Positions 11,602 to 45,511 of a stretch of 64,000 nt of DNA are shown in pieces. The notes below the pieces were generated by a model. That model ran no database searches and was not told the DNA's origin. It saw nothing but the letters and a program-made list of their open reading frames with translations. The translations under genes and the position numbers were made by a program. Positions within the stretch are counted from its first letter, which is position 1; every line of letters starts with the position of its first letter. Source of the stretch: Amycolatopsis sp. WQ 127309 (GTDB lineage: Bacteria > Actinomycetota > Actinomycetes > Mycobacteriales > Pseudonocardiaceae); assembly GCF_023023025.1 (NCBI RefSeq), contig NZ_CP095481.1, positions 5,097,001 through 5,161,000 on the forward strand, in the 5' to 3' direction.

Positions 11602-12768
11602 GTGCGGTTTCCGGCGGTGCTCGCGGTGGCGGGCCTGGTGCTGACCGGTGCGCCCACACTCGCCTTCGCAGCGCCTGAGGCGCAGTGCGCCAACCCGTCC
11701 GGCACGTACACCGGCGGCGTCCCGTGGGGGCAGCGGCTGGTCGACCCGGCGCGGCTCTGGCCGCTGACGCGCGGTGCGGGCCAGCTGGTCGCCGTCATCG
11801 GCACCGGCGTCGACGGGCAGAACTCCCAGTTCGCGCCCGGCCAGCTCGAAGGCGGCGGCGGCACCGAGGCGTCCGACTGCGACGGCCGCGGCACGATCGC
11901 GGCCGGGATCGTCGGCGCCCAGCCGGATCCGTCGACGACGTTCGCCGGGGTCGCGCCCGGTGTGCACCTGCTGCCGATCCGCTACACGCAGGCGAACGGC
12001 TCGTCCAACGACGGCGGTGACCCGGGTGCGCTGGCCGGCGCGATCGACACGGCGGTCGACCGGCACGCGGGCGTCATCCTCGTGGCCGTCCCCGCGGCGT
12101 TCGACAGCCCGGCGCTGTCCGGCGCGGTCGCGCGGGCGCGTTCTCAGGGCGCGGTGGTCGTCTCGGCGGCGACGGCGACCCAGCAGGGCGCGCGGACGTA
12201 CCCGACGGCGACGTCCGGGGCGCTGGGCGTCGGCTCGGTGAACCAGGCGGGCGAGCCGGTGCAGACCGAGGCGGGCGACTACGTCGGCGTCGCCGCGCCG
12301 GGCGCGGAGCTGGTCAGCACGTCGGCCGGCGCGGGCGGTGCGGTCGCGCACCGCTGGCCGGTGACGGATCCGGGCCTCGCGGCGGCGTACGTCGCCGGCG
12401 TCGCGGCGCTGGTCCGCGCGTACCACCCGGACCTGACCGGCGACCAGGTCGTCACCCGGCTGACGTTGACCGCGCACCGCCCGCCTTCCGGGGCACACGA
12501 CCCGCGGCTGGGCTGGGGAGTCCTGGACGCCTACGCCGCCGTCTCCTCGACCCTCCCCGCCGACGTCGCGCCGCCCGGCTCGGCCGTCGCCCCGGCCCCC
12601 GGCCCGGCGGTGGTCCCGGCCGCGGCCCCGGCCCGCCCGGCCTCGAACGTCGCCGCGGGCACGATCGCCCTGGCGGGGGTCGCCTTCGCGGCCGCGGCGG
12701 GAGTCACGGTGGCCGCGGTCCGCCGGGCCCGCCGCCGGGGCTGGCGCCCCTCCCGCTTCACCCCGTAA
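11602..12768 (+). CDS. Catalytically dead mycosin-like (S8) protein of the type VII locus
   Basis: A 388-residue protein with the architecture of a MycP mycosin: signal peptide (1-29), subtilisin-like S8 domain, a Pro/Ala-rich linker and a C-terminal membrane anchor (about 350-372) with a short basic tail. The landmark motifs align but every active residue is changed: VIDTG reads VIGTG (Gly67 for Asp), DGHGT reads DGRGT (Arg96 for His), GTSFAAPYVAG reads DPGLAAAYVAG (Gly258 for Ser), and the oxyanion Asn is Ala192. The frame is intact, so it is kept as a protein. In ESX systems the presence of MycP, apart from its cleavage activity, is reported to stabilise the membrane complex; a structural role is inferred here. 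GTG 11602 follows GGAGGG. Confidence 0.85.
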   Translation: MRFPAVLAVAGLVLTGAPTLAFAAPEAQCANPSGTYTGGVPWGQRLVDPARLWPLTRGAGQLVAVIGTGVDGQNSQFAPGQLEGGGGTEASDCDGRGTIAAGIVGAQPDPSTTFAGVAPGVHLLPIRYTQANGSSNDGGDPGALAGAIDTAVDRHAGVILVAVPAAFDSPALSGAVARARSQGAVVVSAATATQQGARTYPTATSGALGVGSVNQAGEPVQTEAGDYVGVAAPGAELVSTSAGAGGAVAHRWPVTDPGLAAAYVAGVAALVRAYHPDLTGDQVVTRLTLTAHRPPSGAHDPRLGWGVLDAYAAVSSTLPADVAPPGSAVAPAPGPAVVPAAAPARPASNVAAGTIALAGVAFAAAAGVTVAAVRRARRRGWRPSRFTP

Positions 12769-12782
12769 CCGACCCTCCAGGT

Positions 12783-12965
12783 ACGCGAGTTACGCGTTCA
12801 ATCACGCGAGATACGTCTCTGATCACGCGAGTCACGCGTACCGGAACGGCGAACTCGCGTACCTGGATGGTCGACTCGCGTGCCTGGAGGGTCGGTTCAC
12901 GGTACGGAGGTCGGAACTCGCGTGATCCGGGACGGGATTCGCGTGATTGGAGGCGGAACTCGCGT
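12783..12965. repeat. 21-base-period array of ACGCGAG cores, orientation-switched
   Basis: ACGCGAG-type cores start at 12783, 12804, 12825 and (degenerate) 12846. The complement CTCGCGT then starts at 12854, 12875, 12896 (degenerate), 12917, 12938 and 12959. Each series has an exact 21-base period, while the DNA between cores varies. The array fills the gap between the convergent mycosin-like gene and the leftward type VII operon. A longer relative lies at 44591-44953. Function is unknown; two-turn phasing suggests a protein-binding array. Confidence 0.85.
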
Positions 12966-12967
12966 GG

Positions 12968-13333
12968 TTACGCGGGGACCGGGCGGGTCGAGCCGATGAT
13001 GGCTACCGCGTGGCTTGACCGGGCGACGTGGATCGTGAAGTCGGCGCCTTCGCGGCTGAACCTCGCGATGAGTTCGCGGGGGGTGCTGCGGTCGTGGGCC
13101 TGCCAGCCGTGCTGCTCCAGGGAAGGCAGGATCTCTTCGGTGAGGCGGCGTTCCGGCTCGCCCGGGTGCTCCAGGCGGACGCCGTACTGCCAGCACAGCA
13201 GGTTGCCCGGCCGGGTCGGGTCGCAGTCCAGCTCGCTGTTGACCGTGGGGTCCGCGGGCGAGCCGAAGACGGCCGCGACGCTGTCGATCACGCCCGTCAG
13301 CTCGCCGGCCAGGCGGTCCAGTTCGACGCTCAT
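12968..13333 (-). CDS. Uncharacterised protein coupled to the DUF1023 hydrolase
   Basis: A 121-residue soluble protein I do not recognise, with two Cys (in LDCDPTRPGNLLCWQ, about residues 41-55) and a C-terminal beta-rich segment ending IHVARSSHAVAIIGS. Its start overlaps the stop of the DUF1023 hydrolase gene (ATGA), so the two are co-translated. An accessory, chaperone or immunity role for that partner is possible from position alone. It is the last gene of the leftward type VII substrate operon. Confidence 0.7.
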   Translation of the reverse strand: MSVELDRLAGELTGVIDSVAAVFGSPADPTVNSELDCDPTRPGNLLCWQYGVRLEHPGEPERRLTEEILPSLEQHGWQAHDRSTPRELIARFSREGADFTIHVARSSHAVAIIGSTRPVPA

Positions 13334-43995: not shown

Positions 43996-44589
43996 ATGAC
44001 CGCCGGCCCGGCCGAGGACACCCGGACCCGACTGCTGCACACCGCGCTGCGGCTGTTCACCGAACACGGGGTCGAAGGCACGTCGCTGCAGATGATCGCC
44101 GACGCGCTCGGCATCACGAAGGCCGCGGTCTACTACCACTTCAAGACGAAGGCGGAGCTCACCGAGGCCGTCGCCGAGCCCGGTATCCGCGACCTGGACG
44201 AGCTGGTCCTGCGCGCGGCCGCGCAGAAGCGCCGCGGTGCGCAGGTGGACCTGCTGCTGGAGGGGTTCGTCGACCTGGTGGTCCGGCACCGCACGCTGGT
44301 GGCGCTGTTCTCGAGCGACCCGGGCCTCATCCGCGCGATCGAGAAGTCGGCCCACGGCGGCATGGAGGGCTTCGGCCAGGCGCTGCTCGGCATCCTGTCG
44401 GGCCCGGACCCGGACACGGCGGCCCGCGTCAACGCGATGGTGGCCCTGACGGGCATCGCGATGGCCGGTGGCTCCCCGGACCTGGCCGGCCTGGACGACG
44501 AAGAACTCCGCACGGAACTCCTCGACGTCGGCCGCCGCCTCCTGGGCCGCCCCCGCCGCCGAGCCCACCTCCCGATCTCAACCCTCTAA
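43996..44589 (+). CDS. TetR-family repressor of the MMPL exporter
   Basis: The 197-residue protein has the TetR helix-turn-helix at about 28-58 (TSLQMIADALGITKAAVYYH) and a variable helical ligand-binding part. ATG 43996 follows GAGGAGGAAG. Divergence from the exporter, with four related palindromes between, strongly suggests it controls both. A long 21-base-period array begins right after its stop. Confidence 0.88.
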   Translation: MTAGPAEDTRTRLLHTALRLFTEHGVEGTSLQMIADALGITKAAVYYHFKTKAELTEAVAEPGIRDLDELVLRAAAQKRRGAQVDLLLEGFVDLVVRHRTLVALFSSDPGLIRAIEKSAHGGMEGFGQALLGILSGPDPDTAARVNAMVALTGIAMAGGSPDLAGLDDEELRTELLDVGRRLLGRPRRRAHLPISTL

Positions 44590-44590
44590 C

Positions 44591-44953
44591 CCGCGAGCCC
44601 CCCCCCGCCTCGCGAGTCGACCCCCCAACCACGCGAGATACCCCTCCAGTCACGCGAGATACGCGCCTAATCACGCGAGTCCCGCGCTCAATCACGCGAG
44701 TCCCGCGCTCAGCCATGCGAGATACGCGCCCAATCACGCGAGTCCCGCGCTCAATCACGCGAGATGCGCGCTCAATCACGCGAGTTCGGGTTCTGATCCC
44801 GCGAGCCGACCCTCCAGGTACGCGAGCCGAGTCCTCTGGGCACGCGAGCCGACTGTCCCGGTACGTGAGCCGACCCTCTGGGTACGCGAGCCGACCCTCC
44901 GGGTACGCGAGTCGTCCATCCCGGTACACGTGTCGTCCGCTCAGGTGCGCGTG
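44591..44953. repeat. 21-base-period array with 18 ACGCGAG-type cores
   Basis: Cores start at 44591, 44610, then every 21 bases from 44631 to 44820, then 44842 and every 21 bases to 44947. Fifteen of 17 intervals are exactly 21 bases. The first part has TCACGCGAG cores and the second part GTACGCGAG cores, drifting to ACACGTG and GCGCGTG at the end, so two sub-families are joined. It fills the gap between the convergent TetR and kptA genes; no gene is seen in it. Confidence 0.88.
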
Positions 44954-44962
44954 TCGGCCGTG

Positions 44963-45511
44963 TCAGGCCAGGCGGTGGAGGTGTTCCGGCGGCACCACGG
45001 CGGTCAGCCACACGCTGTTCGCGCTCACCTGGAAGGTGCGGCCCGCGGCCGCCATCGCGGCGGCGTCCACCCGGAGGATGACCGGCTTGCCGCGGCGGGC
45101 GGCGACCGTCCGGGCCGTGTCGATCGTCGCCGACAGGTGGACGGCGTGGCGGTTCATCGGGCGCAGGCCGTCGCGCAGGATCGCGTCGAGGAACTTCGCC
45201 ACCGTGCCGTGGTAGAGGACGGCCGGCGGCGGCGTGTCCGCCAGGCCGAGGTCGACGTCCACGCTGTGGCCCTGGCTCGCGCGGATCATGGTGCCGGTGT
45301 CGTCGAAGGCGTACCGGCGTTTGCTGTTGGTCTCGACGACTTCGTCGAGCTGCTCGCGGGTGAGCGTGAAGCCGTGGGCGCGCAGCGCGCGCAGGAGCGC
45401 GTCGACCGCCACCCAGCCGCCGGGGCCGAGGGTGAGGCCGATCGCGGCGGGGTCGTGGCGCAGGTGCAGCGCCAGCCGTTTCGAGATGCGGATCATTTCT
45501 TCGTCGTTCAT
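44963..45511 (-). CDS. kptA: RNA 2'-phosphotransferase (Tpt1/KptA)
   Basis: The 182-residue protein has the family motifs LALHLRHDP (about 13-21), GWVAVDALL, SKRRYAF and the NAD-binding LYHGT with LSATIDTA. Tpt1 moves a 2'-phosphate from RNA to NAD; its role in bacteria, which lack that tRNA splicing route, is unsettled. It is a single gene whose 3' end faces the 21-base array. Confidence 0.92.
   Translation of the reverse strand: MNDEEMIRISKRLALHLRHDPAAIGLTLGPGGWVAVDALLRALRAHGFTLTREQLDEVVETNSKRRYAFDDTGTMIRASQGHSVDVDLGLADTPPPAVLYHGTVAKFLDAILRDGLRPMNRHAVHLSATIDTARTVAARRGKPVILRVDAAAMAAAGRTFQVSANSVWLTAVVPPEHLHRLA

Follow-up and report, generated by a model that had tools for sequence, protein, structure and literature searches.

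What is a row of 18 short, regularly spaced repeats doing between two converging genes of Amycolatopsis sp. WQ 127309, and how might it have come to be there? Within the window, the 64-kb stretch of chromosome that we analysed, a core scan placed this row (array 1) at 44591..44953 on the plus strand. Its 18 ACGCGAG-type cores share one orientation and a 21-bp period, with the first core at 44591 and the last at 44947. Fifteen of the 17 steps are exactly 21 bp (the series runs 19, ten times 21, 22, five times 21), just as a sequence-only reading of this DNA had counted. Eleven of the 18 cores match ACGCGAG exactly and 16 do so with at most one mismatch, while the last two have two mismatches. 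The spacers between the cores are mostly of one type (A) in the first half and mostly of another (B) in the second. The chain found in this gap was 15 units long, compared to a maximum of 3 in 2,000 dinucleotide shuffles (reached in two of them), and 20 shuffles of the whole window gave a single chain of 3.

The same reading had put the array exactly between convergent TetR and kptA genes, and this position was correct. On one side lies a TetR-family regulator (43996..44589, plus strand; TetR_N, E 2.3e-16), whose stop codon adjoins the array. Converging from the other side is kptA (44963..45511, minus strand; PTS_2-RNA, E 4.9e-47), the gene for RNA 2'-phosphotransferase (Tpt1/KptA). Because the flanking genes end at 44589 (plus) and 44963 (minus), array 1 fills the convergent gap. 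The nine named KptA loci closest to that of this genome all belong to Amycolatopsis. A second array in the window, array 2 (12783..12966), consists of three plus-strand cores followed by six minus-strand cores, each with at most one mismatch and at 21-bp steps. Its gap is likewise convergent: it adjoins a subtilase (S8) gene identified by Pfam and open reading frame (11602..12768, plus strand), and on its other side is a gene at 12968..13333 (minus strand), a piece without a Pfam match whose start was chosen by our own gene caller (366 bp) in an open frame that continues to 14293.

A lack of further copies in the genome had been named as one outcome that would speak against the array, and this did not occur. 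The single-contig 11.13-Mb genome contains 350 pairs of cores at 21-bp spacing with at most one mismatch, compared to 10 for a backward control. We defined arrays as chains of cores with at most one mismatch, so that units with other cores, which are present in relatives, were missed. The 363 units collected from this genome comprised 324 distinct sequences, and 265 of 295 steps between them were exactly 21 bp. Core positions were conserved far above the spacer, where weaker preferences were found, mainly for CG at positions 11-12 (74% and 72%) and RRTC at positions 18-21. Thus, the DNA between cores is variable, as had been claimed, but not random. Adjacent units agreed at 0.64 of spacer sites (265 pairs), vs. 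0.46 for randomly chosen units, indicating that local tandem duplication contributes too. The earlier verdict of “not simple tandem duplication” was therefore half right: core and step are constrained, but unit turnover is strong and neighbouring spacers are alike. Because these units had been chosen by their cores, we also chose units by spacer alone; among 368 selected in this way, which include false positives, 164 carried the exact core and 87 a core with one mismatch, for a combined 251 with at most one.

The arrays also change orientation internally. At flips from minus to plus, the spacing was 21k+1 in 10 of 12 cases, eight of which formed the common palindrome CTCGCGAG, and the four junctions from plus to minus were without a common spacing. 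Since the minus-to-plus flips hold the 21k+1 spacing, the lattice survives inversion. A fold-back origin of these minus/plus arrays was rejected, as their arms were not mirror copies (agreement of 0.53 mirrored and 0.58 non-mirrored, in a sample that also has false centres). We also discarded a candidate cap motif at array ends, of which 25 of 184 occurrences faced an array.

To place arrays relative to genes, we ran a home-made codon-usage gene caller on 61 stretches of this genome. Besides the window, these comprised 20 regions of 20 kb at even spacing and 40 further regions, 38 of them chosen to cover listed exact pairs. These stretches held 46 array clusters, of which 26 were in convergent gaps, 17 in same-direction gaps, and none in divergent gaps, with three unclassified because no gene was called on one side (two of these follow rRNA operons). 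The background in the same stretches was 151 convergent, 466 same-direction, and 153 divergent gaps. Placement between convergent genes, as first proposed, thus holds for 26 of the 43 classified arrays but is too narrow a description, given the 17 of 43 between genes of the same direction. All 17 of these were closer to the upstream stop codon than to the downstream start. When only the 20 even regions are counted, arrays occupied three of the 73 convergent gaps and four of the 203 same-direction gaps, but none of the 73 divergent gaps. The nearest relative, G494, had 16 convergent, 15 same-direction, no divergent, and three unclassified clusters in 40 regions. Polarity relative to the replication strand was considered and dropped: by eye, array strands looked clustered in this genome but not in G494.

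Ribosomal operons are a frequent site as well. Across nine array-rich genomes, 17 of the 35 rRNA operons with data carried three or more cores in the first 1 kb past the 5S gene, as opposed to 0 of 10 operons in three array-poor genomes; two further operons had fewer than 100 bases of sequence past 5S. The first chain after the operon was in the transcription sense in 16 of 17 cases, although gene conversion may have spread arrays among the operons of a genome, which brings the independent count nearer to eight genomes. After protein genes, orientation was 34 sense to 29 antisense in this genome and 17 to 20 in G494, and loci in other genera gave 19 sense to 6 antisense (counts that exclude five, two, and four chains, respectively, lying >400 bp from the 3' end). 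The rRNA arrays that we saw sit beyond a strong hairpin, indicating that arrays are not needed there for termination itself. One rRNA operon is followed by array pieces on either side of base 1 of the chromosome sequence (L039:1-877 and the end of L137).

In convergent gaps, ordinary hairpins were less frequent where an array was present. Among array-bearing gaps, 7 of 26 had a stem of at least 10 bp outside the array; among array-free gaps, 32 of 53 did (Fisher p 0.008). This deficit kept its sign at other thresholds with varying strength, was not significant at 9 bp, and is favoured by the short leftover sequence in array gaps. Within array 1, a search for the GC-rich hairpin of an intrinsic terminator found that folds of the first 320 bases were no stronger than those of shuffled sequence (z -0.3 and -0.4). 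Single-orientation arrays, which make up 32 of the 46 clusters, had a mean folding z of -1.1, with a quarter of folds below -2. The 14 mixed-orientation arrays folded strongly (mean z -11.3). Units were mildly C-rich, with a C/G ratio of 1.15 here and 1.12 to 1.86 in other genera.

While surveying these gaps, we also saw other repeats. The genus has a second repeat, the 18-base palindrome CACTTTCACGTGAAAGTG, which matched in 12 of 60 genomes searched; this genome has 23 copies and one relative as many as 166. Places include L041:12911, L170:830 and 863, L176:3240 and 3551, and the KptA gaps of L065 and L194. Its centre presumably resembles the ParB site parS. In an alignment, a further local repeat emerged at L163:4615-5321, where a pyrimidine-rich motif resembling CTTCCCTCCACCTCACCCCCC occurs several times in the gap.

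Within the genus, arrays were patchily distributed. At least 20 exact pairs were found in 39 of 80 genomes (own included); the other 41 had at most 14, and the control reached at most 4. At the gap beside KptA in 30 genomes, an array was present in 15 of the 21 array-rich genomes with data (own included) and in none of the eight array-poor ones, a contrast that is partly built into this grouping; one further array-rich locus stops at a contig edge. Four of the six array-rich genomes without an array at this gap have a different neighbour or direction beside kptA, as judged from gene sizes and strands. Arrays likewise occurred in six of nine loci with data among ten from named Amycolatopsis, a set that overlaps the 30 genomes. 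Loss of the period in close relatives had been proposed as a second outcome that would count against the array. The nearest relative retains the period, as do 15 of 21 array-rich genomes in the gap beside KptA; both period and cores are gone from all eight array-poor ones. In one of these, G462, a palindromic hairpin occupies the KptA gap in place of the array. The best KptA tree needed three changes of label between array-rich and array-poor, though its branching is mostly without resolution, and the array-poor state may have had a single origin.

Array copy number, orientation, and spacers vary between species and at orthologous sites, and the comparison with G494 allowed this turnover to be followed gap by gap. 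Matched stretches above 85% identity were mostly 92-96% identical between the two genomes. Among 198 orthologous gaps, 23 had at least three cores in this genome, of which 17 retained at least two in G494 and six were empty there, and no array gap was private to G494; many of these regions were picked because one genome has an array, so the rates are biased. In the 11 gap pairs with at least three cores in both genomes, differing sites numbered 23 of 366 in cores, 132 of 743 in spacers, and 108 of 1,970 in flanks. A wider count of 15 gap pairs, which includes four where the relative has fewer than three cores, gave 39 of 448, 161 of 876, and 183 of 2,741. In orthologous arrays, spacer sites thus differ roughly three-fold more often than core sites, although exchange of units between subfamilies adds spacer differences and the spacer count is thus not a clean substitution rate. 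Chains counted in this genome had 237 type A and 52 type B spacers, whereas those in G494 had 19 and 123. The dominant spacer type has changed between the two genomes, and the core and period have stayed.

One locus looked different. At L139:5614-5867, an array is bounded by the inverted repeats GTGTCGACC...GGTCGACAC and is absent at the same gap in G494, leaving a nearly clean presence/absence of ~200 bp with nearly intact flanks. This pattern is what a mobile element would leave. No array followed the L139 gene in 28 other genomes, one of them without a gene called there, and in most of them a convergent gene lies 0-9 bp away.

Beyond the genus, a phylum sample had matches in 9 of 396 genomes, in one or two places each except for this genome, and a family sample in 22 of 200, nine of which are Amycolatopsis (own included). 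A closer look at seven genomes from five other genera found 11 to 31 pairs in six (G513, G514, G547, G577, G598, and G620); the seventh, G648, is a weak case with three pairs only, one inside a gene. The 21-bp step is fixed here by the search pattern itself, so the evidence from these genera is instead that matches form runs, at dispersed sites, with a common spacer specific to each genus. The backward control hit 1 place in G513, 3 in G514, 9 in G547, 5 in G577, 39 in G598, 9 in G620, and 1 in G648. In G598, the control exceeded the 24 matches because the unit of that genome often contains the control word. The 30 loci, minus six repeats, included three inside genes, one without a chain, and 20 distinct intergenic ones, of which eight were convergent, ten same-direction, one divergent, and one incomplete. 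In six of the seven genomes, though not in this genome, the reverse core scored best at offset 15 of the unit. This would put a weak inverted half-site about one turn from each core, which is suggestive only.

Taken together, the location of the arrays, their phasing, and their core suggest an element that acts as DNA where transcripts end, and the limited structure of most single-orientation arrays likewise suggests DNA rather than RNA. Our preferred explanation, to which we give a probability of roughly 0.4, is that the arrays are rows of binding sites for a putative protein with a blocking or insulating effect on transcription at gene ends. One sequence-specific DNA-binding protein would bind each ACGCGAG core, and with a step of 21 bp, or two helical turns, all cores would face the same side of the helix, allowing bound copies to stack, much as the sequence-only reading had suggested. 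With arrays sitting directly after stop codons and rRNA operons, a bound row could act as a barrier or insulator against run-on RNA polymerases, and would often replace the ordinary hairpin terminator. Protein binding, stacking of copies, and the effect on transcription are all steps that we infer from the arrangement of the DNA. The constraint on the 7-base core and the 21-bp step posited by the sequence-only reading is borne out by the runs with other spacers in other genera, by the smaller differences in orthologous cores, and by the 10 of 12 flips that keep the lattice, and these same observations favour binding sites. So do the 3'-end placement in both genomes, the sense arrays after rRNA operons, the hairpin deficit, and the KptA gap, with its array in 15 of 21 array-rich genomes and a hairpin in one array-poor relative. 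Conversely, around half of the genus is without arrays, making them dispensable there, and this explanation is also weakened by random orientation at protein genes, the threshold dependence of the hairpin deficit, the hairpins at rRNA operons, and the folding of mixed arrays. If a protein does assemble on the arrays, actinobacteria of this family would have a previously unassigned means of keeping adjacent or convergent transcription units apart, which sister species can lack or exchange for a hairpin.

Core conservation could alternatively stem from a mobilising enzyme that needs the core, and a selfish or neutral repeat is a serious if somewhat less probable possibility. Units would amplify by slippage and unequal exchange, disperse by a core-recognising mechanism, and survive at 3' ends only, since promoter insertions are purged. 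This would suit the patchy presence in 39 of 80 genomes, the shift in spacer type, the differing copy number and orientation at orthologous sites, the six of 23 array gaps that are empty in G494, and the near-clean presence/absence at L139 with its inverted-repeat borders, although the last may be either a gain or a loss. However, such a process alone leaves unexplained why subfamilies and genera with diverged spacers share a core, and does not account for the sense bias after rRNA operons. Moreover, the Y1 (REP-associated, RAYT) transposase (PF01797) was found in 0 of 80 genus genomes with a profile that matched 5 of 14 control genomes, which rules against mobilisation of the REP/RAYT kind. 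If the arrays are nonetheless selfish, this would be a dispersed repeat in bacteria that keeps a fixed helical period, lacks a known mobiliser, and has turned over its spacer type between genomes differing by only ~6% in matched DNA. A topological role seems improbable to us. Here, arrays would recruit a topoisomerase such as gyrase, or would space bendable segments so that the DNA can wrap, and they would take up the positive supercoils that arise between units that converge or are highly active. Convergent and rRNA placement, two-turn phasing, and neutral orientation at protein genes agree with this, and REPs at ORF ends that are targeted by gyrase provide a precedent in parts of PMC3733652, but the rRNA sense bias would be unexpected and so strict a 7-base core probably exceeds what bending needs. 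Slightly less probable again is an RNA-level 3' element, in which transcribed arrays would form hairpins, load Rho, or be recognised by an RNA-binding protein. The very strong folds of the 14 mixed arrays, the mild C-richness, and the preference for sense at rRNA operons (16 of 17) and in other genera (19 to 6) would fit, yet 32 of 46 arrays are single-orientation with mostly little structure, orientation at protein genes is random in two genomes, and left and right arms are not mirror copies. For this genome, sense bias, C/G ratio, and folding made the RNA/Rho reading weak.

Compared to known systems, the arrays recall REP/BIME elements by location and satellites by structure, but lack the defining features of both. 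REP elements can be bound by gyrase, IHF or Pol I. In two accounts (PMC3733652, PMC1525189), REP/BIME are high-copy, extragenic, and located downstream of genes, between convergent or same-direction genes. Our arrays are similarly extragenic, at 3' ends, and depleted between divergent genes (26, 17, and 0 of 43 classified). Whereas REP/BIME units are 20-40 bp palindromes, however, the arrays consist of 21-bp direct repeats, each with a short core, and most arrays do not fold strongly. As in prokaryotic satellites, units lie head to tail at constant length (265 of 295 steps exactly 21). Satellite units are near-identical within an array, whereas array units are diverse (324 distinct of 363, neighbour spacer similarity 0.64), keep core and phase while varying their spacers, and are dispersed at 3' ends. 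For Amycolatopsis mediterranei, 23 satellites are given in part of PMC6749651, whose abstract and sections 9-10 do not describe the array family; nor was a description found in titles and abstracts among the matches listed from the open-licence PMC literature. The CACTTTCACGTGAAAGTG hairpins of the genus resemble the arrays in lying at gene 3' ends, with a hairpin holding the KptA gap in one array-poor relative, but are perfect palindromes of unrelated sequence.

A further parallel in arrangement is offered by the Sal boxes of mammalian rDNA, described in part of PMC5368702 as repeated sites for the protein TTF-1 (related to Reb1) downstream of rRNA genes. Like these roadblock terminators, arrays are repeated after rRNA units (17 of 35 operons in array-rich and 0 of 10 in array-poor genomes); unlike them, they are bacterial, their binding protein is hypothetical, and they follow protein genes too. 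We intend this as an analogy only and make no claim of membership. Taken to its full extent, which we consider rather unlikely, the analogy would give bacteria their own version of the rDNA roadblock terminator: a putative host protein would assemble on helically phased sites, which several genera of the family possess, and would stop polymerases, and perhaps replication forks too, where rRNA operons and other genes end, thus standing in for hairpin terminators.
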